Shown here: piece after piece, positions 1-10,637 of the stretch
How the letters are laid out: every line of letters starts with the position of its first letter
Numbering within the stretch: position 1 is the first letter of the stretch
Assembly (NCBI RefSeq): GCF_022179545.1
Contig: NZ_AP025518.1
Location: 5,022,001-5,086,000, forward strand
From: Mycolicibacterium fortuitum subsp. fortuitum
GTDB taxonomy: Bacteria > Actinomycetota > Actinomycetes > Mycobacteriales > Mycobacteriaceae
Length of the DNA stretch: 64,000 nucleotides
Direction of reading: 5' to 3'
The notes under the pieces: generated by a model
The model's input: only the letters and a program-made list of their open reading frames with translations
Databases searched by the model: none
What the model was told of the DNA's origin: nothing
Translations under genes and position numbers: made by a program

Positions 1-2
1 TG

Positions 3-1070
3 GCCGGGATCGGCTCCGACGTCGCGCTGATGATGCTCAATGGCATCGCAGGCAAGGTCAAGTTCAAGGCGCTGCAGGAACGGGCCCGGGAGAAGATCAC
101 CCAGATCGCTGACGAACGGGGCCTCACGACAGCCGAACTGGAAGACCGCCTTGCGCCCGACCTGGGCTTGGAACCCGACGGCACCATGCTGCTGGATTTC
201 GGCCCACGGCAGTTCCGGGTCGGCTTCGACGAAGCCCTCAAACCGTTTGTGCGCGATAGCGATGGCGCTCGGCTGAAAGACCTCCCGAAGGCCCGTCGTG
301 ACGACGATGCCGAGCTGGCCACCGCCGCCACGGCCCGGTGGAGGGCACTCAAGAAGGACGCCCGCACGGTTTCCGGTCAGCAGGTGTTGCGCCTGGAGCT
401 GGCGATGTGTGCACGGCGCCGCTGGAGTCTGCCGGTGTTCGAGCAGTTCTTGGCCGGCCATCCGTTGGTGCGCCACCTGGTGCAGCGTTTGGTGTGGGCC
501 ACCTACACCGACGCCGGAGACCTCGACCGGTGCTTCCGCGTCGCCGAAGACGGTCAGTACACCGACGCCGACGACGAGCCGATCACGCTGGCCGATGATG
601 CCGTCATCGGCCTGCCGCACGCGCTGGAACTCCCCGAGGCCGAATCCGCGGGCTTCGGTCAGCTGTTCACCGATTACGAACTGCTGCAACCCTTTACCCA
701 ACTCGGCCGGGACACCTACCGGCTCACCGAGGCCGAGAAATCCAGCACCGAACTCACCCGGTGGAGCGATCTCGTCGTCCCCACCGGCAAAGTCCTCGGC
801 CTGACCAACCGCGGCTGGGACCGCGGCATGCCCCAGGACGCCGGCGTCATCCACGACATGGAGAAGCCGCTGCCGGGAGGCTGGCGGGCGGTCGCCGACC
901 TCTCGGAAGGCCTCGCCGTCGGGGCGCTCGACTACTTCCCCGAACAAAGCATCACCCGGGTGATCGTCGGTACTCCCGGGAAATGGACGGTCGACGCGAA
1001 GACCTTCGGTGAGCTCGACGAGATCACCGCAAGCGAACTCATCCGCGACCTGGAGGGTCTCCGTGGCTGA
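3..1070 (+). CDS. DUF4132 domain-containing protein, C-terminal part (YehI-like)
   Basis: The reading frame is open from the first bases of the window, so the gene starts upstream and only about 355 C-terminal residues are visible. The sequence has the character of the DUF4132 C-terminal region, with a stretch of the type GSDVALMMLNGIAGK followed by KFKALQERA and a 'LDFGPRQF' strand. DUF4132 is found in E. coli YehI; its biochemical role is unknown. The stop codon overlaps the GTG of the MoxR gene (GTGGCTGA), so the two are probably translationally coupled and it belongs to the five-gene cluster ending at 7484. No catalytic residues can be assigned from this fragment. Confidence 0.8.
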   Translation, partial: AGIGSDVALMMLNGIAGKVKFKALQERAREKITQIADERGLTTAELEDRLAPDLGLEPDGTMLLDFGPRQFRVGFDEALKPFVRDSDGARLKDLPKARRDDDAELATAATARWRALKKDARTVSGQQVLRLELAMCARRRWSLPVFEQFLAGHPLVRHLVQRLVWATYTDAGDLDRCFRVAEDGQYTDADDEPITLADDAVIGLPHALELPEAESAGFGQLFTDYELLQPFTQLGRDTYRLTEAEKSSTELTRWSDLVVPTGKVLGLTNRGWDRGMPQDAGVIHDMEKPLPGGWRAVADLSEGLAVGALDYFPEQSITRVIVGTPGKWTVDAKTFGELDEITASELIRDLEGLRG

Positions 1071-2139
1071 GCAGAACCTCCAGCGCGCCCCGGCCGAGAT
1101 CGATTACGCCGATGAGCTGGCGAAGCTCACCGCGGACACCTCCGAACCCCGGCCGCCGGGATGGAGCATGGGGCTGCGGTCTGCCCGCGCCTTCGTCCTG
1201 GGCGAGCGTGCCCGTGGCATCACCCCGAAGGTCGTCGTGCCGAACGCGGCCGTCGAACGCATGCTGGTCACCCTGGCCACCGGACGCGGCCTGATGCTGG
1301 TCGGCGCGCCGGGCACGGCCAAGTCGCTGTTGTCCGAGCTGCTGGCCACTGCGATCAGCGGGTGCTCCACGTTGACCATCCAAGGCGGGGCGTCGGTCAC
1401 TGAGGATCAGATCAAGTACTCGTGGAACTATGCGTTGCTGATCAACGAGGGCCCCAGTCTGAATGCTCTTGTCCCCGCCCCGCTCTACACGGGTATGCGC
1501 GACGGCAAAGTGGTGCGGTTCGAGGAGATCACCCGCACGCCGCTGGAAGTGCAGGACAGCCTGCTGAGCATGCTCAGCGACCGGGTCATGGCGGTGCCCG
1601 AGCTCGCCGGTGAGCACGGCATGCTCTATGCCCGTGAAGGTTTCAACGTCATCGGCACCGCGAACACCAAAGACCGCGGCGTCAACGAGATGAGCGCGGC
1701 GCTCAAACGCCGGTTCGACTTCGAAACCGTCTTCCCCATCCTCGATTTCGACGTCGAGATGGACCTGGTGGCGCGCGCGTCGCAGACCCTGCTGGCCCGC
1801 AGTGGGGTCCCGGTGACCGTGCCCGAACCCGTCCTGGAACTGTTGGTGCGCACGTTCCGCGATCTGCGTGACGACGGCGGCACCGCGATGGACCGGCTGA
1901 GCGCGGTGATGTCGACCGCCGAAGCCGTCAACGTCGCACATGCCGTCGGCGTGAGGGCATGGTATCTGGGTCAACGCCAGGGCAATCCGGCCGATCTGGC
2001 AGAGAGCATCGGCGGCACGGTGGTCAAAGACGATGTCGACGACCGGGCAAAGCTGCGGCGCTACTTCGAACAGAAGGTCGCCGGACGCCGCGGGCGGCAC
2101 TGGCAGGAGTTCTATGCCGCGCGCGACCTGCTGCCCTGA
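1063..2139 (+). CDS. MoxR-family AAA+ ATPase (YehL-like)
   Basis: AAA+ ATPase of 358 residues. Visible motifs are Walker A GAPGTAKS (81-88), a Walker B-like VVRFEEI (150-156), sensor-1 region GTANTKDRG (198-206) and an arginine-rich ALKRRFDF segment (213-220). MoxR ATPases act as chaperone-like machines that usually work with a von Willebrand factor A (VWA) protein; one is encoded two genes downstream. The GTG start is preferred over a longer frame opening at 1009 because GGAGGG lies 5 bases upstream and the GTG overlaps the previous stop. The gene is 2 bp from the DUF5682 start. Family assignment is firm; the client is unknown. Confidence 0.93.
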   Translation: MAEQNLQRAPAEIDYADELAKLTADTSEPRPPGWSMGLRSARAFVLGERARGITPKVVVPNAAVERMLVTLATGRGLMLVGAPGTAKSLLSELLATAISGCSTLTIQGGASVTEDQIKYSWNYALLINEGPSLNALVPAPLYTGMRDGKVVRFEEITRTPLEVQDSLLSMLSDRVMAVPELAGEHGMLYAREGFNVIGTANTKDRGVNEMSAALKRRFDFETVFPILDFDVEMDLVARASQTLLARSGVPVTVPEPVLELLVRTFRDLRDDGGTAMDRLSAVMSTAEAVNVAHAVGVRAWYLGQRQGNPADLAESIGGTVVKDDVDDRAKLRRYFEQKVAGRRGRHWQEFYAARDLLP

Positions 2140-2141
2140 TC

Positions 2142-4439
2142 ATGACGGACCTCGATGAGCCCAGAATCATTGGAGTACGGCATCACTCGCCGTCGTGTGC
2201 CCGCGTGGTGGTCGCCGAGATCGAGCGGCTGCGCCCGGCGCACGTGCTCATCGAGGGACCATGCGATTTCAACGGCCGCATCGATGAACTCGACGCCGGG
2301 CACCGGCTGCCGATAGCGATCTACAGCTACCTGTCCGCACCGGGAGTGCATCGCGGCTCCTGGTCGCCGCTGGCCGAACACTCGCCGGAATGGCAGGCGC
2401 TGCGAGCAGGCCGGCGCGTCGGCGCGCAGCTCCGGTTCATCGACCTGCCCGCGTGGCACGACGCCTTCGCCGAATTCACCAATCGATACGCCGATGACCC
2501 CGACGAGGCGTCCGAACACCGTGCGGCGGACTACACCGCATCGGTGGCCCGCGAGTTGGGCATCGACAGTCGAGACGCGTTGTGGGACCACCTGTTCGAA
2601 TCTGAAGTCGACCCCGCGGTGGCAGCACAGCGGTTGTCGGCATGGTTCACCGGACTGCGCGGCGAGGATCCAGGTTCGACAGGCAATGCCGCCCGCGAAG
2701 ACCTCATGGCACGCTGGATCGCGTGGGCGGTCCGCAGGGACGAGGGTCCGGTTGTGGTCGTCTGCGGTGGCTATCACGCGCCCGCGCTGGCCAAGCTGTG
2801 GGCCCGGCTACCTCCGACCGACACACCGCCGGCAGTTCCCGTCCCCAGCACGGATTCCCGCCACGGCTCGTATCTGGTGCCGTTCAGCTTCCGCCAACTC
2901 GATGCATTCACCGGGTACGCCTCGGGAATGCCGTCACCCTCGTACTACCAGTGGATCTGGGAGGACGGAATAGCGGCGGCGGGGCGGCAACTTCTGCACC
3001 GGACGCGGGATCGGCTGCGGAACAGAAAATTACCGGTGTCCACTGCGTCACTGCAGAACGTGTACACACACGCACACGGCTTGGCCCGGTTGCGCGGGCA
3101 TGAGGTTCCGCTGCGCTGCGACTGGCTCGATTCGGTTGCGGCCTGCTGGGTCACCGATGCGCTCGAGGCGCCGTTGCCGTGGAGCTACCCCGGTCCGCTG
3201 GCCCCCGGCACGGATCCGGTGCTGGTCGAGGTGATGGACGTGCTCTCAGGCGACCAGGTCGGCGCTCTCGCGGCGGGCACCCCGCAGCCGCCGTTGGTGG
3301 CGGCAGTCGCCACCGAACTGACCGCCCACGATCTGCCGGAAACGGGAGAAGTCTCTCTGGATCTGTTGTCCGACAATGACCGTCGGCGCAGCCGGGTGCT
3401 ACACCGTCTGGCGCTGCTGGGCATCCCTGGAACCCAGCGCCGCGCAGGCCCACGGTGGGCACTCGATGCCGGGCGTAACCCCGGCGAGCAGTGGTATCTC
3501 AGCGATCCGCCCGCACGCCTGGCCGCCCTCATCGAAGCCGGTGCCTGGGGCGCCACCCTGCTCGACGCCGCCCGCAACAAGTGGGGCTCCACCATCAGCG
3601 GTCCCGATATCGGCGTCGCCGAACTCGCCGCAGCCGTAGACGCTGCAGCCGCGGCCGGGCTCGGTTCCGTGCAGGCCGACGTGATCGGCCGACTCCGCGC
3701 GACCGTGGCCGCCGAGACCGACCTCGGTGCCCTGGGCGCGGCGCTGCGGGCGCTACTGCCGTTGGCCCGCACTCCGCACTTGCTCGGCCTCGACGACGTC
3801 CCCGGCTGCCTCGACGCGGTCGAGGCGATCGCCGACCGCGCGGTGTGGTTGCTCGAGCCGCCTGCCGCACTGGCACCCGCACAGATCGACGGGCATCTAC
3901 GGTTGATGATCGGATTGCGGGATCTGGTGCGCGCGCAGTTGTTCGCCACCATGGACGATCGGATCGTGGCGGTGCTGCACCGCAAAGCGGCGTCGCACTG
4001 TTCGGACCCGGCGAGCCGGGGTGCAGCGCTCGGCGCCGTGATCAGCCTCGGTTCTGCGGCCGACGCCGATCCACTGGCCATTCTGGGCTCGGTATCGGTG
4101 ACCCGGCTCGGCGATGCGCTGGCAGGGTTACTCGCGCTGGCCCGCGAGGAGTTGATCTCGGATGCCGGCTTCGTGGCCGGTCTTGATGGATTGATCAGCG
4201 GATTGCCCGGTGACGATTTCGTCGGCGCTCTCCCGGCCCTGCGCGCCGCGTTCGCGTGGTTGCCGCCCCGGGAGCGCGGCGACGTGGCCGATGCGGTGCT
4301 GGAGCTTCACGGCGCCACCGACGTGTCGCGGCGCGTGCTGTTGCGGCGTCTCGACGTAGATCCGCAGGCCGTGGCCGAAGCTGCGGCGGACGAACGCCGC
4401 GCCGTCGAGCGGCTGCAGTCGTGGGGGGTGTGGCCGTGA
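2142..4439 (+). CDS. DUF5682 family protein (YehM-like)
   Basis: Protein of 765 residues with no membrane segment or signal peptide. The N-terminal third carries GVRHHSPSC, LIEGPCDF and further on VVCGGYHAPAL. This spacing of a GxxH, an E-G-P and a second GxxH-like motif recalls the TraB/Tiki esterase-protease fold; that is an inference from motif pattern only. The C-terminal half is Ala/Leu-rich and probably helical. ATG at 2142 follows the MoxR stop by 2 bp, and the stop overlaps the VWA start (GTGA). DUF5682 is the regular partner of MoxR and VWA genes in this cluster type; function unknown. Confidence 0.82.
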   Translation: MTDLDEPRIIGVRHHSPSCARVVVAEIERLRPAHVLIEGPCDFNGRIDELDAGHRLPIAIYSYLSAPGVHRGSWSPLAEHSPEWQALRAGRRVGAQLRFIDLPAWHDAFAEFTNRYADDPDEASEHRAADYTASVARELGIDSRDALWDHLFESEVDPAVAAQRLSAWFTGLRGEDPGSTGNAAREDLMARWIAWAVRRDEGPVVVVCGGYHAPALAKLWARLPPTDTPPAVPVPSTDSRHGSYLVPFSFRQLDAFTGYASGMPSPSYYQWIWEDGIAAAGRQLLHRTRDRLRNRKLPVSTASLQNVYTHAHGLARLRGHEVPLRCDWLDSVAACWVTDALEAPLPWSYPGPLAPGTDPVLVEVMDVLSGDQVGALAAGTPQPPLVAAVATELTAHDLPETGEVSLDLLSDNDRRRSRVLHRLALLGIPGTQRRAGPRWALDAGRNPGEQWYLSDPPARLAALIEAGAWGATLLDAARNKWGSTISGPDIGVAELAAAVDAAAAAGLGSVQADVIGRLRATVAAETDLGALGAALRALLPLARTPHLLGLDDVPGCLDAVEAIADRAVWLLEPPAALAPAQIDGHLRLMIGLRDLVRAQLFATMDDRIVAVLHRKAASHCSDPASRGAALGAVISLGSAADADPLAILGSVSVTRLGDALAGLLALAREELISDAGFVAGLDGLISGLPGDDFVGALPALRAAFAWLPPRERGDVADAVLELHGATDVSRRVLLRRLDVDPQAVAEAAADERRAVERLQSWGVWP

Positions 4440-5557
4440 TCGACGTCCCAGAACCCTTGCAGCGGTGGCGATTGCTGTTGGGTGCAGCTGCTGATGGCGC
4501 GCTCGGCACCCCCGCCGGGGAGCTCGGGGCGGCCGATGCCGCATTGGAGTGGCTCTACGGCCGCGACCCGGACCGCGCCGAACGCGGGGAGCGGGCAGGC
4601 GGTCAGGGCGAATCGACGCTGAGCGTGCCGGACTGGATCGACGCCGTGCACACGCTGTTTCCTCATGAGGTGATCGAGCGGGTCGAACGCGACGCGGTCG
4701 AGCGGTTCGGGATCACCGAAGTGGTGACGCGGCTGGATGTGCTCGAACGCATCGAACCTTCCGAATCGCTGCTCAGAGCCGTCATGCAGACCAAGCACCT
4801 GATGAATCCCGAGGTGCTGGCCGCGGCACGGCGAATGATCGCCGAGGTGGTGCGCCGGCTGTTGGCCGAACTGGACACCGAAGTGCGCCGAGCTTTCACC
4901 GGCACACTCGACCGCCGCCGACGCTCGCCCGTCCCGATCGCCCGCAACTTCGATTTCCGCGGCACCGTCAAAGCCAACCTGGACCGCTGGGACCCGCAGC
5001 GGCAGCGGCTGTATCTTCAGCGACCACTGTTCTCCAGCCGTACGCAGCGGCACACCGAACGGTGGCGGATCGTGCTGCTGGTGGATCAGAGTGGCTCCAT
5101 GGTGGATTCGGTGATCCATTCAGCGGTGCTCGCCAGTTGCCTGTGGCAACTCCCCGGGATGGACACCAGCCTCGCGGCGTTCGACACCCAGGTGGTGGAT
5201 CTGACCGACGAGCTGACCGATCCCGTCGAGCTGCTGATGAAAGTCCAGTTGGGCGGTGGCACCGACATCGCCGCTGCCGTGGGGTGGGCAGCCGGACAGG
5301 TCAACAGTCCGCATCGTTCGGTGGTCGTGGTCATTTCGGACTTCTATGAAGGCGGTTCAGCACAGTTGCTGGTCCGCCGGGTGCGCGATCTGGTCGCAGG
5401 CGGGACGACGGTGCTGGGACTGGCTGCGCTCGACCGCCACGCCAACCCCGCCTACAACCACGAGCTGGCAGGGGAACTGGTCGCGGCCGGCGCGGAGGTG
5501 GCTGCGATGACTCCGGGCGAGTTGGCGGTATGGCTCGCCGAGAAGGTTCGGCGATGA
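4436..5557 (+). CDS. VWA domain protein of a MoxR system (YehP-like)
   Basis: Cytosolic protein of 373 residues: an N-terminal helical region (about 1-200), then a von Willebrand factor A domain with an intact metal-ion-dependent adhesion site. The MIDAS residues are DQSGS at 217-221, the threonine in GGGTD (T276) and the aspartate of SDF (D302). VWA proteins with MIDAS sites pair with MoxR ATPases, here encoded two genes upstream. The GTG start at 4436 overlaps the DUF5682 stop. A longer in-frame reading opens at 4256 inside DUF5682 and is rejected because it would overlap 180 bp. Confidence 0.9.
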   Translation: MIDVPEPLQRWRLLLGAAADGALGTPAGELGAADAALEWLYGRDPDRAERGERAGGQGESTLSVPDWIDAVHTLFPHEVIERVERDAVERFGITEVVTRLDVLERIEPSESLLRAVMQTKHLMNPEVLAAARRMIAEVVRRLLAELDTEVRRAFTGTLDRRRRSPVPIARNFDFRGTVKANLDRWDPQRQRLYLQRPLFSSRTQRHTERWRIVLLVDQSGSMVDSVIHSAVLASCLWQLPGMDTSLAAFDTQVVDLTDELTDPVELLMKVQLGGGTDIAAAVGWAAGQVNSPHRSVVVVISDFYEGGSAQLLVRRVRDLVAGGTTVLGLAALDRHANPAYNHELAGELVAAGAEVAAMTPGELAVWLAEKVRR

Positions 5558-5585
5558 GCGCCGGCGCGAAGAAGAGACCAACACA

Positions 5586-7484
5586 GTGAGCGCGCGTGCC
5601 GACCTGCTCGACCTGACCACCGATGCGCTCACCGCGCTGGCCAACCCCGGCTTCGTCAAGCGGGCGCGGAAGGAGCTCGATGCCGGGCGCGGTCCCGCCC
5701 TCGAGATCGGTGACGACGGCACGGTCACCGCCCGCTTCGATGACGGCGTAATCACCACGCTGCCGGTGGGAACGGCCGTACGCGACGCCACGTGCAGTTG
5801 TCCGGCCAACGGATGGTGCCGGCACCGGGTGATGCTGGTCCTGGCCTACCAGGACGGGTACCGCAACACCCCGGTGGAAACCAAAGAGCGTTGGAGCCCA
5901 GCAGAATTCACTGACGACATCCTGATGCGGACACTGGCTCCGGCGACCCTGGCCGCGGCGCGGCGCATGGCGCGCGGGACCGTGCGCCTGTCGGCACCCG
6001 ACGGTGTCCCCACGGCCCGACTGCCGCTGAACACCGTGCAGTTCTTCTCGCCGTCCGCGTTGGCCCATGCCCGTTGCGACTGCCGCGACGTCAGCGGATG
6101 CGCCCACCTGGCCGTGGCGGTGTGGGCGTTTCGGGCGGCCGGTGACGCCGACTCGGCGATGGTCCGCGAAATGGTGGTCGCCCTCGACAGCGGCACGGAT
6201 CACCGGCCCGACGTCGAGGGGTTCGCCGCTGACCTCGACGCGCTGACACTCGCGCTCTGGTCGGACGGGACCGCCTCCGAGGACGCCGGTCTCGACGCCC
6301 GACTGGGTGCCTTGACCGAGCAGGCCCGCCGCCTCGGATGGAGCTGGGTGGCCGCCGACCTCGAGGAACTGAGCAGGCAGCGCGAGGCGCTGCACCAGCG
6401 TCGCAGCGACGCAGACCCGGAGGCGCTGCTCACGCTGGTGGCCGAGGCCCCGGCCCGGCTGCGCGCCGCCGCGGCCGCCGGCGAACTCGCTGCACCACAA
6501 CGCACCGCAGGTGAGATCCTCGGCGTCGGGGTGCCTGGCGAAACCGAGCTGGCCCACCTGCGGTTGATCTCGCTGGGCGCCGAGACCTGGCGCGACGAAC
6601 AGGGCGTCGGCGCCCGGGTGTATCTCGCCGATCCCGACACCGGTTCGGTGTCCGTGCTGGAACGGCGGTGGTCCGGCCCACAGGCGGCCGCCGGGCGTCG
6701 GATCCTGGGCACGAGGCTGGAGCGGGTGGCTCAGGGGCAGGTGGTCACCACCGGAGCACGACGGCGAGCTCTGGGCCTCATCGAGATCAGTGCCGAGCGC
6801 GGGCGCACGTCGCTGCACGATCTGAGCCCTGCAGCCTGGGACACCGCGACACTGCCGCACGGTATCGCCCGCGAATCGTGGCCCGCGTTCGTGAGTCCAC
6901 GCCGACTTGGCGACGGTATCCGGATACTGACCGTGGACACCGTGCACGACTGGGGCTTTGACGCCGCGACGCAACAATTGGTGGCTGACGTGACCGGTCC
7001 GCATGGCGATACCCGCTTGACGCTGGCGCATTCGGCTGCGGCTGCGGGTGCGGTCGATGCAGTTGCCGATGCCCTGGAAACGGCGAACCTGCACCGGGTC
7101 AGTGTCCGGGTGCACCGGCGGGCCGGACGGCTGATCTGTGAACCGCTGGCGGTGCTGACGCACGACCGCGCCCTGGTGCCGGCGACGGCCACAGCCACAG
7201 GCCGCGAGCTGCCGCCGGCGCCTCCCGACGCGCCGGCCGGGCCGGTGGAACGCGCCCGTGTCGAACTCGCCGGCTGGTTGCGCCGGGGGCTGCGCACCCA
7301 GGGGCGGGCCGCGCGGGAACGGTTGGCCGGACTCTCGGAAGGACTCAGCTCCGCGGGAATGACCATCGCCGGTGCCGAATTGGCGGTAGCCGCTGCCGCT
7401 ATCGGTGAGGACACACAGGCTGCGGTCCACTCGCTACAACGAGTCGTACTGCTCCTCAGCGAAATGTCGGCTGCTACGGATTGA
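5586..7484 (+). CDS. SWIM zinc-finger family protein with two SWIM-type motifs (YehQ-like)
   Basis: Protein of 632 residues. A canonical SWIM signature CxCx6CxH is visible at 70-80 (CSCPANGWCRH), and a second C-x-C-x5-C-x-H set lies at C164, C166, C172 and H174. SWIM modules bind zinc and are thought to mediate nucleic-acid or protein contacts. The rest shows no recognisable enzyme motif. GTG at 5586 is 28 bp after the VWA stop; there is also an ATG at 5553 in another frame. This is the last gene of the cluster and is followed by a hairpin at 7487-7505. Confidence 0.87.
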   Translation: MSARADLLDLTTDALTALANPGFVKRARKELDAGRGPALEIGDDGTVTARFDDGVITTLPVGTAVRDATCSCPANGWCRHRVMLVLAYQDGYRNTPVETKERWSPAEFTDDILMRTLAPATLAAARRMARGTVRLSAPDGVPTARLPLNTVQFFSPSALAHARCDCRDVSGCAHLAVAVWAFRAAGDADSAMVREMVVALDSGTDHRPDVEGFAADLDALTLALWSDGTASEDAGLDARLGALTEQARRLGWSWVAADLEELSRQREALHQRRSDADPEALLTLVAEAPARLRAAAAAGELAAPQRTAGEILGVGVPGETELAHLRLISLGAETWRDEQGVGARVYLADPDTGSVSVLERRWSGPQAAAGRRILGTRLERVAQGQVVTTGARRRALGLIEISAERGRTSLHDLSPAAWDTATLPHGIARESWPAFVSPRRLGDGIRILTVDTVHDWGFDAATQQLVADVTGPHGDTRLTLAHSAAAAGAVDAVADALETANLHRVSVRVHRRAGRLICEPLAVLTHDRALVPATATATGRELPPAPPDAPAGPVERARVELAGWLRRGLRTQGRAARERLAGLSEGLSSAGMTIAGAELAVAAAAIGEDTQAAVHSLQRVVLLLSEMSAATD

Positions 7485-7579: not shown

Positions 7580-8920
7580 ATGACCCTGCTGGACATCCTG
7601 CCTTCACTTCGCGACACGACCCGCCCGCGGCTCGATCCGACAATCTGGCCGCTGACGACCGGCGTCGACGGATTGGGCCGGATCACCGTCGGCCGGGTGG
7701 CAATGACCGATATCGCCGACGAATACCGCACCCCGGCCTATGTTCTCGACGAAACCGATTTTCGTACCCGGGCGCGGCGATACCGAGGTGCGCTCGGTCA
7801 GACCGAGGTGGTCTATGCCGGCAAGTCACTGTTGACCACCAGCGTCGCCCGGTGGGCCGCCGAGGAAGGTCTCGGTGTGGACGTCTGCTCCGCGGCGGAG
7901 CTCGCGACGGCCCTGGCCGGAGGGGTCGATCCGGCACGCATCGTGCTGCACGGCAACGCGAAGTCCTGTGATGAGTTGCGGGACGCGGTCGACGTCGGGG
8001 TGGGCCGCATCGTGATCGACTCCCCGATGGAGATCACCTATCTGGCGGGGCTGGTGCGACGACCGCAGCCGGTATTGATCCGGGTCACTCCCGATATCGA
8101 CATCCACGGGCATCGCGCCGTCACCACCGGTGTGACCGACCAGAAGTTCGGTTTCGCGCTGGCCGACCGCCGGGCCGCGCGCGCAGCCGCCCGAATTCTG
8201 GCCACCCCCAACCTCGATCTGATCGGGCTACACTGCCACATCGGCTCGCAGATCACCGATCCCGCGCCGTACGGCGAGGCGGTGCACCGGCTGATCGGCG
8301 CGATGGCCGACATCCGTGCCGAACACGGCGTGCTGCTGACCGAGCTCAACATCGGTGGCGGACATGGGGTTCCGTATGTCCGTGGAGACGCGTCGCTCGA
8401 CACCGCAGCGTTCGGCGCCGTCGTCGACGATGCCCTGACCACGGCGTGTGCGGCCGAGCGGTTTCCCCGCCCGCGTCTGGTCGTCGAACCCGGACGGGCC
8501 ATCAGTGCCCGGGCGGGCGTGACGCTGTACCGGGTGCACGGGGTGAAGTCCCAACCCGACGGACGCACATTCGTCGCGGTGGACGGCGGCATGAGCGACA
8601 ACCCACGGGTCGCCCTATACGGGGCGAAATACACTGTGGCCTTGGCCAATCGGCATCCGCTAGGACCAACCATGGTGGCCACGGTGGTCGGCAGGCACTG
8701 CGAGGCCGGTGACGAGATCGTGCGCGATGCAGAACTGCCCGCCGATATCCACGCAGGCGATCTGCTGGCCGTCGCCTGTACCGGCGCCTACCAACACAGC
8801 ATGGCCTCGACGTACAACATGGTCGGTCGCCCGCCGGTGGTGGCGGTACGCGACGGCGCCTCCCGGGTGCTGGTGCGCCGGGAGACCACGACGGATCTGC
8901 TGTCGCGGGATCTGGGCTGA
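7580..8920 (+). CDS. diaminopimelate decarboxylase family protein (LysA paralogue)
   Basis: PLP-dependent fold-III decarboxylase of 446 residues. The predicted PLP lysine is K82 in VVYAGKSL. Other family features are LHGNAKS, HCHIGSQI, the glycine loop LNIGGGHG and HCEAGDEI near 374, which supplies the active-site cysteine from the neighbouring subunit. LysA converts meso-diaminopimelate to lysine, but mycobacteria carry a main lysA next to thrA elsewhere, so this copy is probably a paralogue acting on DAP or a related diamino acid. It stands alone between the SWIM cluster and a convergent ArsR gene. Substrate is inferred from family only. Confidence 0.83.
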   Translation: MTLLDILPSLRDTTRPRLDPTIWPLTTGVDGLGRITVGRVAMTDIADEYRTPAYVLDETDFRTRARRYRGALGQTEVVYAGKSLLTTSVARWAAEEGLGVDVCSAAELATALAGGVDPARIVLHGNAKSCDELRDAVDVGVGRIVIDSPMEITYLAGLVRRPQPVLIRVTPDIDIHGHRAVTTGVTDQKFGFALADRRAARAAARILATPNLDLIGLHCHIGSQITDPAPYGEAVHRLIGAMADIRAEHGVLLTELNIGGGHGVPYVRGDASLDTAAFGAVVDDALTTACAAERFPRPRLVVEPGRAISARAGVTLYRVHGVKSQPDGRTFVAVDGGMSDNPRVALYGAKYTVALANRHPLGPTMVATVVGRHCEAGDEIVRDAELPADIHAGDLLAVACTGAYQHSMASTYNMVGRPPVVAVRDGASRVLVRRETTTDLLSRDLG

Positions 8921-8927
8921 CGAACCG

Positions 8928-9251
8928 TCAGACTTCCCGCTCGGCAGCGTCCTTGATCCTGGCCAGGCGGCGATCCCAACCAGCGGCGATACCGTCGAGC
9001 CGTCGGGCCACCTCGCTCAGCCGAGCCCCCACCGCCTCGTACTTGACCTCGCGCCCCACCCTGCCGGCCGATACCAGGCCGACATCGGTGAGCACTTTCA
9101 GATGTTTCGCGATGGCCTGGCGGCTGATCGGAAGTTCCTCGGCCAGCGCCGAGGCCGACGCCGGCCGGCGCCCGAGCGCCACCAGAACCTGCCATCGACT
9201 GTCGTCGGCAAGCGCAGCGAAAATCTGTACAGGCGAGGCATTCTCATGCAT
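8928..9251 (-). CDS. ArsR-family winged-helix transcriptional regulator
   Basis: DNA-binding protein of 107 residues with the ArsR winged helix: a helix-turn-helix of the form ASALAEELPISRQAIAKHL (about 32-50) followed by a wing GRVGREVKY. No metal-binding cysteine pair is present, so it is not a canonical arsenic sensor; it resembles the ArsR members that pair with SRPBCC (Aha1-type) proteins. Its ATG overlaps the stop of the upstream SRPBCC gene by 8 bp (ATGCATGA), so they form an operon. Two matching palindromes upstream of the operon are likely its operators. Confidence 0.9.
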   Translation of the reverse strand: MHENASPVQIFAALADDSRWQVLVALGRRPASASALAEELPISRQAIAKHLKVLTDVGLVSAGRVGREVKYEAVGARLSEVARRLDGIAAGWDRRLARIKDAAEREV

Positions 9252-9693
9252 CGGCGGCGGCTCCGACCAGGTACTTGCGGGCGAGGCCGAGCTCCAGCGA
9301 CCAACCGCCACTGTGATCGTCGAACCGGGAGCGACGGTTGACCTCGGGCTCGTCGAGTGCGGCGAAACCGCTCTCGACAACACGCAGCACCACGCCGGAT
9401 TGCGCTGGGGTGATCCAGAATTCGACGAGGGTGGAGGAGCTTTCGAGGTCGTCGGCGTCGATATGCCACCGGAAGGCCGCGTACCGCGGCTCATCGAGCT
9501 CGACGGTCCGCAACGCGAACTTCCCGTGGGTGGGATCGGTGACGATGGCGATGTCGCCGTCACGATCGATCTGATGTTCGGTGATCTGCTCGTCGTTGAT
9601 GTACCAACCTGGTTCGCTCACCAGGTCCCAGACGCGTTGTGCCGGTGCGTCGATGACGATCTCACGCTCGATGCGGTCGTAGTCGGTGGTCAT
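9244..9693 (-). CDS. SRPBCC domain protein (Aha1/START-like)
   Basis: Protein of 149 residues with the SRPBCC pattern: an N-terminal strand REIVIDAPAQRVWDLV, central beta-sheet, and a C-terminal helix ending in SLELGLARKYLVG. These proteins form a hydrophobic cup that binds small lipophilic ligands. ATG at 9693 is preferred because GGGAGGAA lies just upstream; a frame extended to 9738 would start inside the operator. First gene of a two-gene operon with the ArsR regulator, an arrangement common in actinobacteria. The ligand is unknown. Confidence 0.87.
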   Translation of the reverse strand: MTTDYDRIEREIVIDAPAQRVWDLVSEPGWYINDEQITEHQIDRDGDIAIVTDPTHGKFALRTVELDEPRYAAFRWHIDADDLESSSTLVEFWITPAQSGVVLRVVESGFAALDEPEVNRRSRFDDHSGGWSLELGLARKYLVGAAADA

Positions 9694-9720
9694 GTCGGGT
9701 TCCTCCCTGGCCGGATTACT

Positions 9721-9770
9721 GCAACCCCAGGGTTGCACATGAGGCCCCTTTGTTGCAACCCATGGGTTGC
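9721..9770. promoter_or_regulatory. two near-identical 16-bp palindromes, probable ArsR operators
   Basis: Two copies of GCAACCCNNGGGTTGC lie at 9721-9736 and 9755-9770, each with perfect 7-base arms and a 2-base centre (CA and AT). Their starts are 34 bp apart, a little over three helical turns. They sit 28-77 bp upstream of the SRPBCC start, between it and the end of the TetR gene. The best candidate binder is the co-transcribed ArsR protein, giving autoregulation. Confidence 0.75.
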
Positions 9771-9796
9771 AGTTGATGCGGACGGGCGCCGCAGCC

Positions 9797-10432
9797 CTAC
9801 TCCTCGTGCAGGATCGGGTCCGACTCCAGATGCGTCAGCCCGTTCCAGGCCAGATTGACCACGTGCGCGGCCACCACTTCCTTCTTGGGTTCGCGCACGT
9901 CGAGCCACCACTGCGCGGTCATCGACACCGATCCGACCAGCGCCTGGGCGTACAGCGGCGCGAGGTCCGGGTCGAGCCCGCGGCGGGAGAAGTCCCCGGC
10001 CAGGATCGAGGACACCTGATTGACGGCGTCGTTGAGCAGTGTGGCGTAAGTCCCCGAGGTGATGGCCGCCGGCGAGTCGCGGATCAGGATGCGGAAGCCG
10101 TCGGTGTGTTCCTCGACGTAAGTCAGCAGCGCCAGCGCCACCCGCTCGACCCGCACGCGGGATCGGTTGTTGGTCAGCGACGAGGTGATCCCGTCCAGCA
10201 GTGCCGACATCTCCCGGTCGACAACGACGGCGTACAGACCTTCCTTGCCGCCGAAATGCTCGTAGACCACTGGTTTCGAGACGTTGGCGCGTTGGGCGAT
10301 CTCTTCGATCGAGGTGCCCTCGTAGCCCCGTTCGGCGAACAACGACTTGGCGATCTCGATGAGCTGTTGTCGCCGTTCGTTGCCGGTCATCCGGGCCCGA
10401 GGGGCCCGGACTTCCTTCTCGGGTGCTGCCAC
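9797..10432 (-). CDS. TetR-family regulator (Rv1019 orthologue by position)
   Basis: Protein of 211 residues with an N-terminal TetR helix-turn-helix: the helical region covers about 20-65, including GYEGTSIEEIAQRANVSKP and the conserved VYEHFGGKEGLY. The C-terminal domain binds an unknown ligand. It is divergent from tRNA-Gln/glmU, exactly as Rv1019 is in M. tuberculosis. There Rv1019 has been reported as an autorepressor transcribed with mfd; here mfd is not the next gene. The GTG start at 10432 gives a basic N-terminal tail; an ATG 14 codons later is an alternative. Confidence 0.88.
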   Translation of the reverse strand: MAAPEKEVRAPRARMTGNERRQQLIEIAKSLFAERGYEGTSIEEIAQRANVSKPVVYEHFGGKEGLYAVVVDREMSALLDGITSSLTNNRSRVRVERVALALLTYVEEHTDGFRILIRDSPAAITSGTYATLLNDAVNQVSSILAGDFSRRGLDPDLAPLYAQALVGSVSMTAQWWLDVREPKKEVVAAHVVNLAWNGLTHLESDPILHEE

Positions 10433-10475
10433 GCATTACAGGCTAGACCGTTCGACTAGAGTCTCTCCCGGACAT

Positions 10476-10547
10476 TCCGTCGTGGTGTAATCGGCAGCAC
10501 CTCTGATTTTGGTTCAGATAGTTCAGGTTCGAGTCCTGGCGACGGAG
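10476..10547 (+). tRNA. tRNA-Gln (anticodon TTG)
   Basis: A cloverleaf can be drawn: acceptor TCCGTCG/CGACGGA, anticodon stem TCTGA/TCAGA around loop TTTTGGT with anticodon TTG, and T-arm TCAGG-TTCGAGT-CCTGG. The discriminator base is G and CCA is not encoded. The gene sits about 90 bp upstream of glmU on the same strand, as in other mycobacteria. It reads CAA codons for glutamine. Confidence 0.95.
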
Positions 10548-10637
10548 CAACTGAGTACGGCGAGCGTGCGCAGAATGCACGGTTGCCACGGCATGTCGCA
10601 AACAGACGTGCACGTGCGCGGAGAGAGGGGATTCCCT

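Follow-up and report, generated by a model that had tools for sequence, protein, structure and literature searches.

The window analysed here, 64,000 nucleotides of the chromosome of Mycolicibacterium fortuitum subsp. fortuitum (contig NZ_AP025518.1), opens with a co-directional operon of five near-overlapping genes encoding, in this order, a DUF4132 protein, a MoxR ATPase, a DUF5682 protein, a CoxE-type VWA protein, and a protein with two SWIM zinc fingers (Table 1). We give an even chance to the proposal that this operon encodes an ATP-driven MoxR-VWA machine acting on DUF5682, a predicted hydrolase of the TIKI fold, with the DUF4132 and SWIM proteins responsible for sensing or targeting. 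The proposal is based on the gene set, its order and conservation, fused reading frames, the predicted fold and invariant residues of DUF5682, and the spread of the set as a unit. The predicted fold and invariant residues of DUF5682, its fusions to the VWA protein, and a version of the set with DUF5691 are new here.

The intergenic gaps are -8, +2, -4, and +28 bp in gene order, and the DUF5682 and VWA genes meet in a GTGA start/stop overlap; the start codons are our choice. An earlier note on this DNA had placed the same five families here and on this strand, which agrees with the Pfam matches for all five and with the gene limits re-read from the sequence. The limits of the operon that it gave also hold, except for the first gene, which is cut by the window: the DUF4132 gene begins 2,490 bases ahead of it, and the full gene (L002:13511-17071; L and G numbers are our designations of loci and genomes) encodes 1,186 amino acids. 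The part of this protein inside the window matched PF13569 with an E-value of 7e-53. No NCBIfam model scored above its cut-off with the operon proteins, DUF4132 being given in part. The host genome consists of one contig of 6.4 Mb and contains DUF5682 once.

Table 1. Features of the operon and of the adjoining block, in window positions (aa, amino acids; identities from BLASTP against E. coli K-12)
Feature	Position	Strand	Evidence
DUF4132 protein (YehI orthologue), C-terminal 355 of 1,186 aa in window	1..1070	+	Pfam PF13569, 31.5% identity to YehI, full open reading frame
MoxR AAA+ ATPase, YehL subfamily, 358 aa	1063..2139	+	AAA_5 2e-33, 72.5% identity to YehL, Walker A/B, sensor 1, Arg pair
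DUF5682 protein (YehM orthologue), 765 aa, predicted TIKI/TraB/ChaN-like N-domain and HEAT/ARM-like helical half	2142..4439	+	PF18934 4e-99, 42.5% identity to YehM, AlphaFold2 models, fold searches
GVRHH, first GX2H motif of DUF5682, residues 11-15	2172..2186	+	Alignment conservation
E38, presumed catalytic Glu at the end of the second strand of DUF5682	2253..2255	+	57/57 and 23/23 rows; strand 34-40 in model
GGYH, second GX2H motif of DUF5682, residues 209-212	2766..2777	+	Alignment conservation
VWA_CoxE-type protein (YehP orthologue), 373 aa, complete metal ion-dependent adhesion site (MIDAS)	4436..5557	+	PF05762 5e-54, 61.6% identity to YehP, MIDAS residues
Twin-SWIM zinc-finger protein (YehQ orthologue), 632 aa	5586..7484	+	PF04434 1.4e-6, 34.5% identity to YehQ, two CxCx5CxH motifs
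Rest of block between mfd-like and TetR-like genes: pyridoxal phosphate (PLP)-dependent decarboxylase (+), minus-strand gene region	7580..9799	.	blastn comparison of the host chromosome with L029 and relatives L129-L134; Pfam Orn_Arg_deC_N

The operon is already known in E. coli as a set of uncharacterised genes, yehI, yehL, yehM, yehP, and yehQ. No functional account of this set turned up in the literature searched; the available part of one report describes a resistance transposon inserted in the DUF4132/yeh region of one sublineage (PMC9334617). The equivalence, proposed in the earlier note, is borne out by BLASTP matches of 31-73% identity, which cover most of each of the five proteins, with 1,126 aligned columns for DUF4132/YehI. 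By sequence comparison all five parts are orthologous and stand in the same order and on the same strand, a correspondence that chance does not explain. The E. coli order is yehI-yehK-yehL-yehM-yehP-yehQ, which differs from the mycobacterial one only by yehK between yehI and yehL, while the WGR gene yehF and the yehH pseudogene are located upstream.

The ATPase contains a Walker A motif (GAPGTAKS), a Walker B motif (FEE), a sensor-1 Asn, and an Arg pair, and the VWA protein has a complete MIDAS (DQSGS, GGGT, and D). Apart from the last Ser of Walker A, each of these functional residues is shared by 95% or more of the aligned rows (93 for MoxR, 91 for VWA). The intactness of both sites had been noted before, and an ATP-driven machine with a metal-site adaptor is a plausible reading of them. 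The VWA protein is assigned to the VWA_CoxE adaptors by sequence, since it matches PF05762 over the cut-off and has the MIDAS pattern DxSxS-T-D. The motifs and the closeness to YehL place the ATPase in the YehL subfamily of MoxR proteins, an assignment based on comparison with YehL itself, which represents one of seven subfamilies. YehL gave its name to this subfamily (PMC3893208), and the available part of the source mentions no TIKI-like partner, in which the operon differs.

Scanning named genomes with DUF5682 as the query yielded 309 confirmed relatives, and gene content was counted in the best 80 of these loci. All five families were present in 74 of these 80 loci, which are not independent (many belong to Variovorax, Massilia, and Glycomyces): 67 had the I-L-M-P-Q order, four, from Burkholderia, had L-M-P-Q-I, and three had DUF4132 on both sides. 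Four of the other six loci were cut by a contig end (L034, L036, L048, and L065), one contained MoxR and DUF5682 only (L088), and one had no DUF4132 within its 22 kb (L100). According to NCBI labels, the rows of the DUF5682 tree come from Beta- and Gammaproteobacteria, Myxococcota, Actinomycetes, and Acidimicrobiia. The five genes form a real module. The possibility that these families are found mostly apart in other genomes, which the earlier note had named as a way to refute it, does not hold for the YehM-type set; DUF4132 also occurs alone, being more than 10 kb away from any listed DUF5682 place in 8 of the 18 DUF4132 places listed and within 10 kb in the other 10, according to the coordinates. 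No further conserved gene was found, that is, no family occurred in more than 13 of the 80 loci, where simple calls of open reading frames (ORFs) in high-GC DNA could miss a small one. The single family that reached 13 loci occurs on both strands and looks promiscuous.

The clusters with DUF5691 keep the core order MoxR-DUF5682-VWA. The order SWIM, DUF5691, MoxR, DUF5682, VWA was found at all nine mycobacterial loci with DUF5682 scores of 840-861 bits, in L144, L190, and L191, and in plasmid records of Deinococcus and Rhizobium. These clusters, known from Mycobacterium, Rhizobium, and Deinococcus and with variations from Streptomyces-like bacteria and Hymenobacter, share four of the five parts with the operon, but DUF5691 stands for DUF4132 and SWIM is located upstream. 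In L136, SWIM and DUF5691 point away from MoxR, DUF5682, and VWA as a divergent pair of genes, no DUF5691 match was found in L140 at the threshold used, and a Hymenobacter plasmid record contains DUF5691-MoxR-DUF5682-VWA with no SWIM called by Pfam. A small extra gene lies between MoxR and DUF5682 in Deinococcus and Hymenobacter. A plasmid record of Allorhizobium has a permuted DUF4132 set (MoxR, DUF5682, DUF4132, VWA, SWIM), and among distant members no SWIM was seen in L016 and a marginal one (20 bits) in L139. Within the genus, DUF5691 was detected in 3 of 118 genomes, always beside a DUF5682 of the 840-861-bit type.

In six loci of one variant (L135, L141, and L186-L189), all with a short upstream DUF4132 gene, DUF5682 and VWA are encoded in a single frame; in L135, both PF18934 and PF05762 exceeded the cut-off in one frame of 1,266 amino acids. 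L190 and L191 likewise encode SWIM together with DUF5691 in one frame. Such reading-frame fusions argue for a physical partnership of the products. Another long frame of the DUF5682-VWA fusion variant, 1,584 amino acids without a Pfam match, is located between the short DUF4132 gene and MoxR (L141:11755-16509).

AlphaFold2 models of DUF5682 had predicted local distance difference test (pLDDT) values of 88.3 and 89.6. Because Foldseek with the full-length model matched mainly helical-repeat proteins, the N-terminal domain was modelled separately, and its nine best structural matches were all TIKI/TraB/ChaN-like; the domain is thus predicted to have the alpha/beta TIKI fold. The large half of the protein is HEAT/ARM-like according to the fold search. 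Residues R13, H14, E38, R185, E186, G209, and H212 are invariant in 80 of 80 aligned rows. In the first motif, the 57 YehM-type rows all contain G11, R13, and H14, while H15 (55 of 57) is not invariant; the 23 rows from other architectures all have R13, H14, and H15, and 21 of them have G11. The second motif retains G209, G210, and H212 in all YehM-type rows and G209 and H212 in all others. The two His of the GX2H motifs and the Glu appear to be located at the ends of core strands of the model, as judged by chain position only. The suggestion of the earlier note that a DUF part could be an effector or processing enzyme is supported by the predicted hydrolase-like domain of DUF5682.

The likeness of DUF5682 to the TIKI/TraB/EreA/ChaN superfamily comprises the predicted fold, the two GX2H motifs, the Glu after the second strand, and R-E-x2-M before the second His, where ChaN rows have 'RD..MA' and one TraB row 'ERN'. 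In contrast to members of this superfamily, the DUF5682 domain is attached to a helical-repeat half and is part of a MoxR-VWA system. The Glu at -2 of the first His is missing, so that the 2His/2Glu pattern of the Ere/RRSP type is not complete (position 12 is V, I, or G in 57 of 57 rows), and there is no significant sequence match. For several of the fold matches the identity of the matched protein was inferred, which tempers our confidence in the proposed machine. An hhalign comparison of the N-terminal domain with TraB and ChaN sets gave probabilities of 0.3-0.4, with 0.2-0.5 for decoys and only 4.0 for the positive control, TraB against ChaN. These sets comprised 24 of 29 tried TraB loci (out of 30) and 6 of 8 ChaN loci, those dropped having a match with a stop or being hard to cut; the profiles were taken from 22 genomes behind named loci because PF01963 was absent from 40 genomes of the window's class. 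A profile search of A2 against PDB sequences yielded 0 matches, and E. coli YbaP had no significant match there; absence of any family from the fold lists excludes nothing. In a literature search that most subscription papers fell outside, we found no paper naming DUF5682, three naming DUF4132, none joining TIKI/EreA-ChaN with MoxR, and none holding a SWIM zinc finger, MoxR, and VWA together.

MoxR-VWA pairs are reported to mature metalloenzymes (available parts of PMC13036017 and PMC3893208). In NorQ-NorD, the best-studied relative in the literature consulted, a finger of the VWA protein inserts into the ring and the MIDAS is thought to grip the target; consumption of ATP then twists the VWA protein, which lets metal into the target (PMC13036017 and PMC9976466). 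On this analogy, YehL- and YehP-type proteins would act on DUF5682. The most constant core would consist of the MoxR motor ring, the VWA adaptor, and DUF5682. The adaptor would plug into the ring and grip its client through the MIDAS metal; the client, a predicted hydrolase, would combine a TIKI/TraB/EreA/ChaN-like domain with a helical-repeat arm, and the ring would most likely remodel it, load its metal, or switch it on, much as nitric oxide reductase is opened by NorQ-NorD to receive its iron. DUF4132 and the SWIM protein would tell where or when. A physical complex, an enzyme activity, the direction of control, and any stress role are what we infer here. The operon resembles NorQ-NorD, CoxD-CoxE, and RavA-ViaA in the combination of a MoxR ring with a VWA protein, the latter being of the CoxE type with a full MIDAS. 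Unlike these systems, it encodes its likely client, DUF5682, sometimes fused to the machine, and is usually accompanied by two further parts, DUF4132 or DUF5691, and SWIM.

The two putative sensing parts are the most variable ones. Mean pairwise identity in the same 30 rows was 71% for MoxR, 66% for VWA, 50% for DUF5682, 40% for DUF4132, and 37% for SWIM. DUF4132 is large and present in two to four copies in 30 of the 80 loci (ORFs above 150 bits: one copy in 45, two in 14, three in 15, four in 1, and none in 5). Of 107 DUF4132 proteins, 63 were selected for a domain scan, and 34 of these begin with a WGR domain at the N-terminus, as do those of L138 and L195, but a Pfam scan of the full window protein revealed none. 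The SWIM protein contains CxCx5CxH at residues 70-80 and 164-174, as expected for the twin-SWIM protein described previously, although Pfam alone calls the first motif only. No Cys or His of the first motif is conserved in fewer than 79 of 81 rows, and the second motif is present in 54. In the 27 rows where it is missing, as in all 81, the Asp between its first two Cys is kept.

Two more DUF4132 genes are present in the host genome (G000:C1:6365167-6365712, L142, and G000:C1:1215419-1215841, L143), with no DUF5682 at either. By eye, the L142 gene is near an AhpC-like gene, and similar flanking genes surround this lone paralogue (L142:3835-8953) and the DUF4132-MoxR-DUF5682-VWA set of L016 (3936-6529).

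DNA-damage regulation through LexA or mycobacterial PafBC was considered and rejected. With motif patterns that we take to represent these boxes, the 1.5 kb ahead of the first gene gave no match in the host chromosome or in the loci, apart from a single PafBC-like one in L100, 125 bases before the first gene found there. In about 20 loci the first gene starts at the locus edge, so that its upstream part falls outside, and for minus-strand loci the distance was taken from the opposite end, although these contain no exact box at any position. DUF4132 is reported to be induced by DNA damage in Deinococcus (DRA0166, DdrO/IrrE), where mitomycin induces it along with WGR proteins (PMC8533742). DRA0166 is at most a putative member of such a set, so its induction is a lead only. 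The link to stress is weak: the Deinococcus induction is known, yet no LexA box was found ahead of this operon.

The closest named relatives of the DUF5682 and SWIM proteins are mycobacterial. Quick trees without bootstrap were built for DUF5682, MoxR, SWIM, and VWA. In the DUF5682 tree, the rows of the window, Mycolicibacterium frederiksbergense, and Propionibacteriaceae/Aeromicrobium group with Proteobacteria (Shimodaira-Hasegawa-like approximate likelihood ratio test, SH-aLRT, 99), while other actinobacterial copies, including mycobacterial L017 and L018, form a separate clade (96). The MoxR and SWIM trees agree with this placement (100 and 100), and the VWA tree, with supports of 35 and 20, does not settle it. 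Since three of four trees put the operon with Proteobacteria, the set was probably transferred across phyla and acquired as a unit. The term actinobacterial, used for the cluster in the earlier note, suits the host, whereas this copy falls among proteobacterial copies. Judged from the sequences, mycobacteria carry at least two separate lineages of the set. DUF5682 (PF18934) was over the cut-off in 13 of 248 genomes of the genus, four at 333-342 bits, the YehM kind by score (G000, G088, G243, and G162, the last being the divergent L016), and nine at about 840-861 bits.

This patchy distribution and the apparent cross-phylum transfer would also suit a conflict system directed against invaders, akin to the MoxR-vWA ternary systems, in which the VWA protein would hold DUF5682 as an effector to be released on a signal sensed by DUF4132 or SWIM. 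Conflict systems built around MoxR-vWA pairs have been described (PMC7159879), DUF4132 evolves fast, is often multiplied and is swapped for DUF5691 in other versions, and the fold group includes host-acting proteases. We nevertheless consider a conflict system improbable, since the presumed effector site of DUF5682 is invariant in all 80 rows and not replaced, and a yehL-Q match was found in 5,301 of 5,426 E. coli genomes (about 98% of complete genomes; at least 80% covered in 5,162). PADLOC assigned 0 families to the five proteins (DUF4132 given in part), the operon neighbours include eno, mfd, and glmU by eye, and searches of 50,697 phage and 72,556 plasmid records found a relative in 1 and 30 of them, respectively, several records being chromosome-sized. 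The ternary systems (VMAP, iSTAND, FtsH, beta-propeller; PMC7159879) share with the operon a MoxR and vWA core plus a third component, but this component is here DUF5682, and the bpMoxR profile scored 19.1, below its cut-off of 27. Pfam scans, in which coverage of all four families is unchecked, named no VMAP, iSTAND, FtsH, or beta-propeller component, and the main text of that study, so far as available, names none of YehL, DUF4132, DUF5682, and SWIM. The conflict link drawn in the earlier note is weakly supported, although the DUF4132/DUF5691 exchange and the patchy mycobacterial spread could be counted on its side.

It is also unlikely that the operon encodes a set of maturation factors for a metalloenzyme encoded elsewhere, comparable to CoxDE and NorQD, with DUF5682 as a metal carrier or scaffold. 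The known role of MoxR-VWA pairs, the CoxE family of the operon VWA protein, and the haem-binding nature of ChaN, one of the fold matches (title of 2g5g), are consistent with maturation, but no target enzyme was seen travelling with the operon among the crudely called ORFs, and the invariant residues of DUF5682 fit the catalytic His/Glu pattern of the fold. Still more doubtful is a dead DUF5682 scaffold with a kept fold, in an operon acting as a chaperone for DUF4132 or for a SWIM-held nucleic-acid complex: one of the four 2His/2Glu residues is missing and the large half is HEAT/ARM-like, but dead enzymes usually lose their site, and that of DUF5682 is invariant across several architectures.

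By eye, eno and mfd are located upstream of the operon and a TetR gene, tRNA-Gln, and glmU downstream. A PLP-dependent decarboxylase of the ornithine/diaminopimelate/arginine type (7580-8920) follows 95 bp after the operon. M. frederiksbergense (L029) has the operon and the downstream part, including the decarboxylase gene, at the same place, but the small ORF preceding the operon is absent there. The operon is absent from all six relatives without a DUF5682 match (L129-L134). According to blastn, the mfd and TetR matches are within about 110 bases of each other in L130, L131, and L132; they lie farther apart in L134 (about 0.7 kb), L133 (1.3 kb), and L129 (4.1 kb of other DNA). L133 contains, without the operon, a stretch 67.6% identical to part of the decarboxylase gene. 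Because these relatives have short or other DNA at this place, the approximately 13 kb between mfd and TetR occupies a variable spot next to tRNA-Gln (window 9783-10548), with a right border near 9,783-9,799. The block, comprising the small ORF, the five genes, the decarboxylase gene, and the minus-strand gene region, may have been gained here or lost elsewhere.

A wider proposal, which we put forward tentatively and hold to be rather doubtful, is that the operon represents a pan-bacterial class of AAA+-operated hydrolases. In this class, the MoxR ring and VWA would gate a TIKI-fold protease or esterase, DUF5682, which would stay latent until an exchangeable sensor (DUF4132 with WGR, or DUF5691) and SWIM report damaged or foreign nucleic acid. 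Both versions, seen in five phyla, would then be one machine with swappable sensors and a logic like that of a gated protease system. If the narrower proposal of a MoxR-VWA machine acting on DUF5682 is right, a TIKI-superfamily enzyme would be run by an AAA+ ring, a combination described in no paper that we found. The predicted fold and residue set of DUF5682, with its frame fusions to the VWA adaptor, give these genes of unknown function a defined hypothesis that is open to point substitution.

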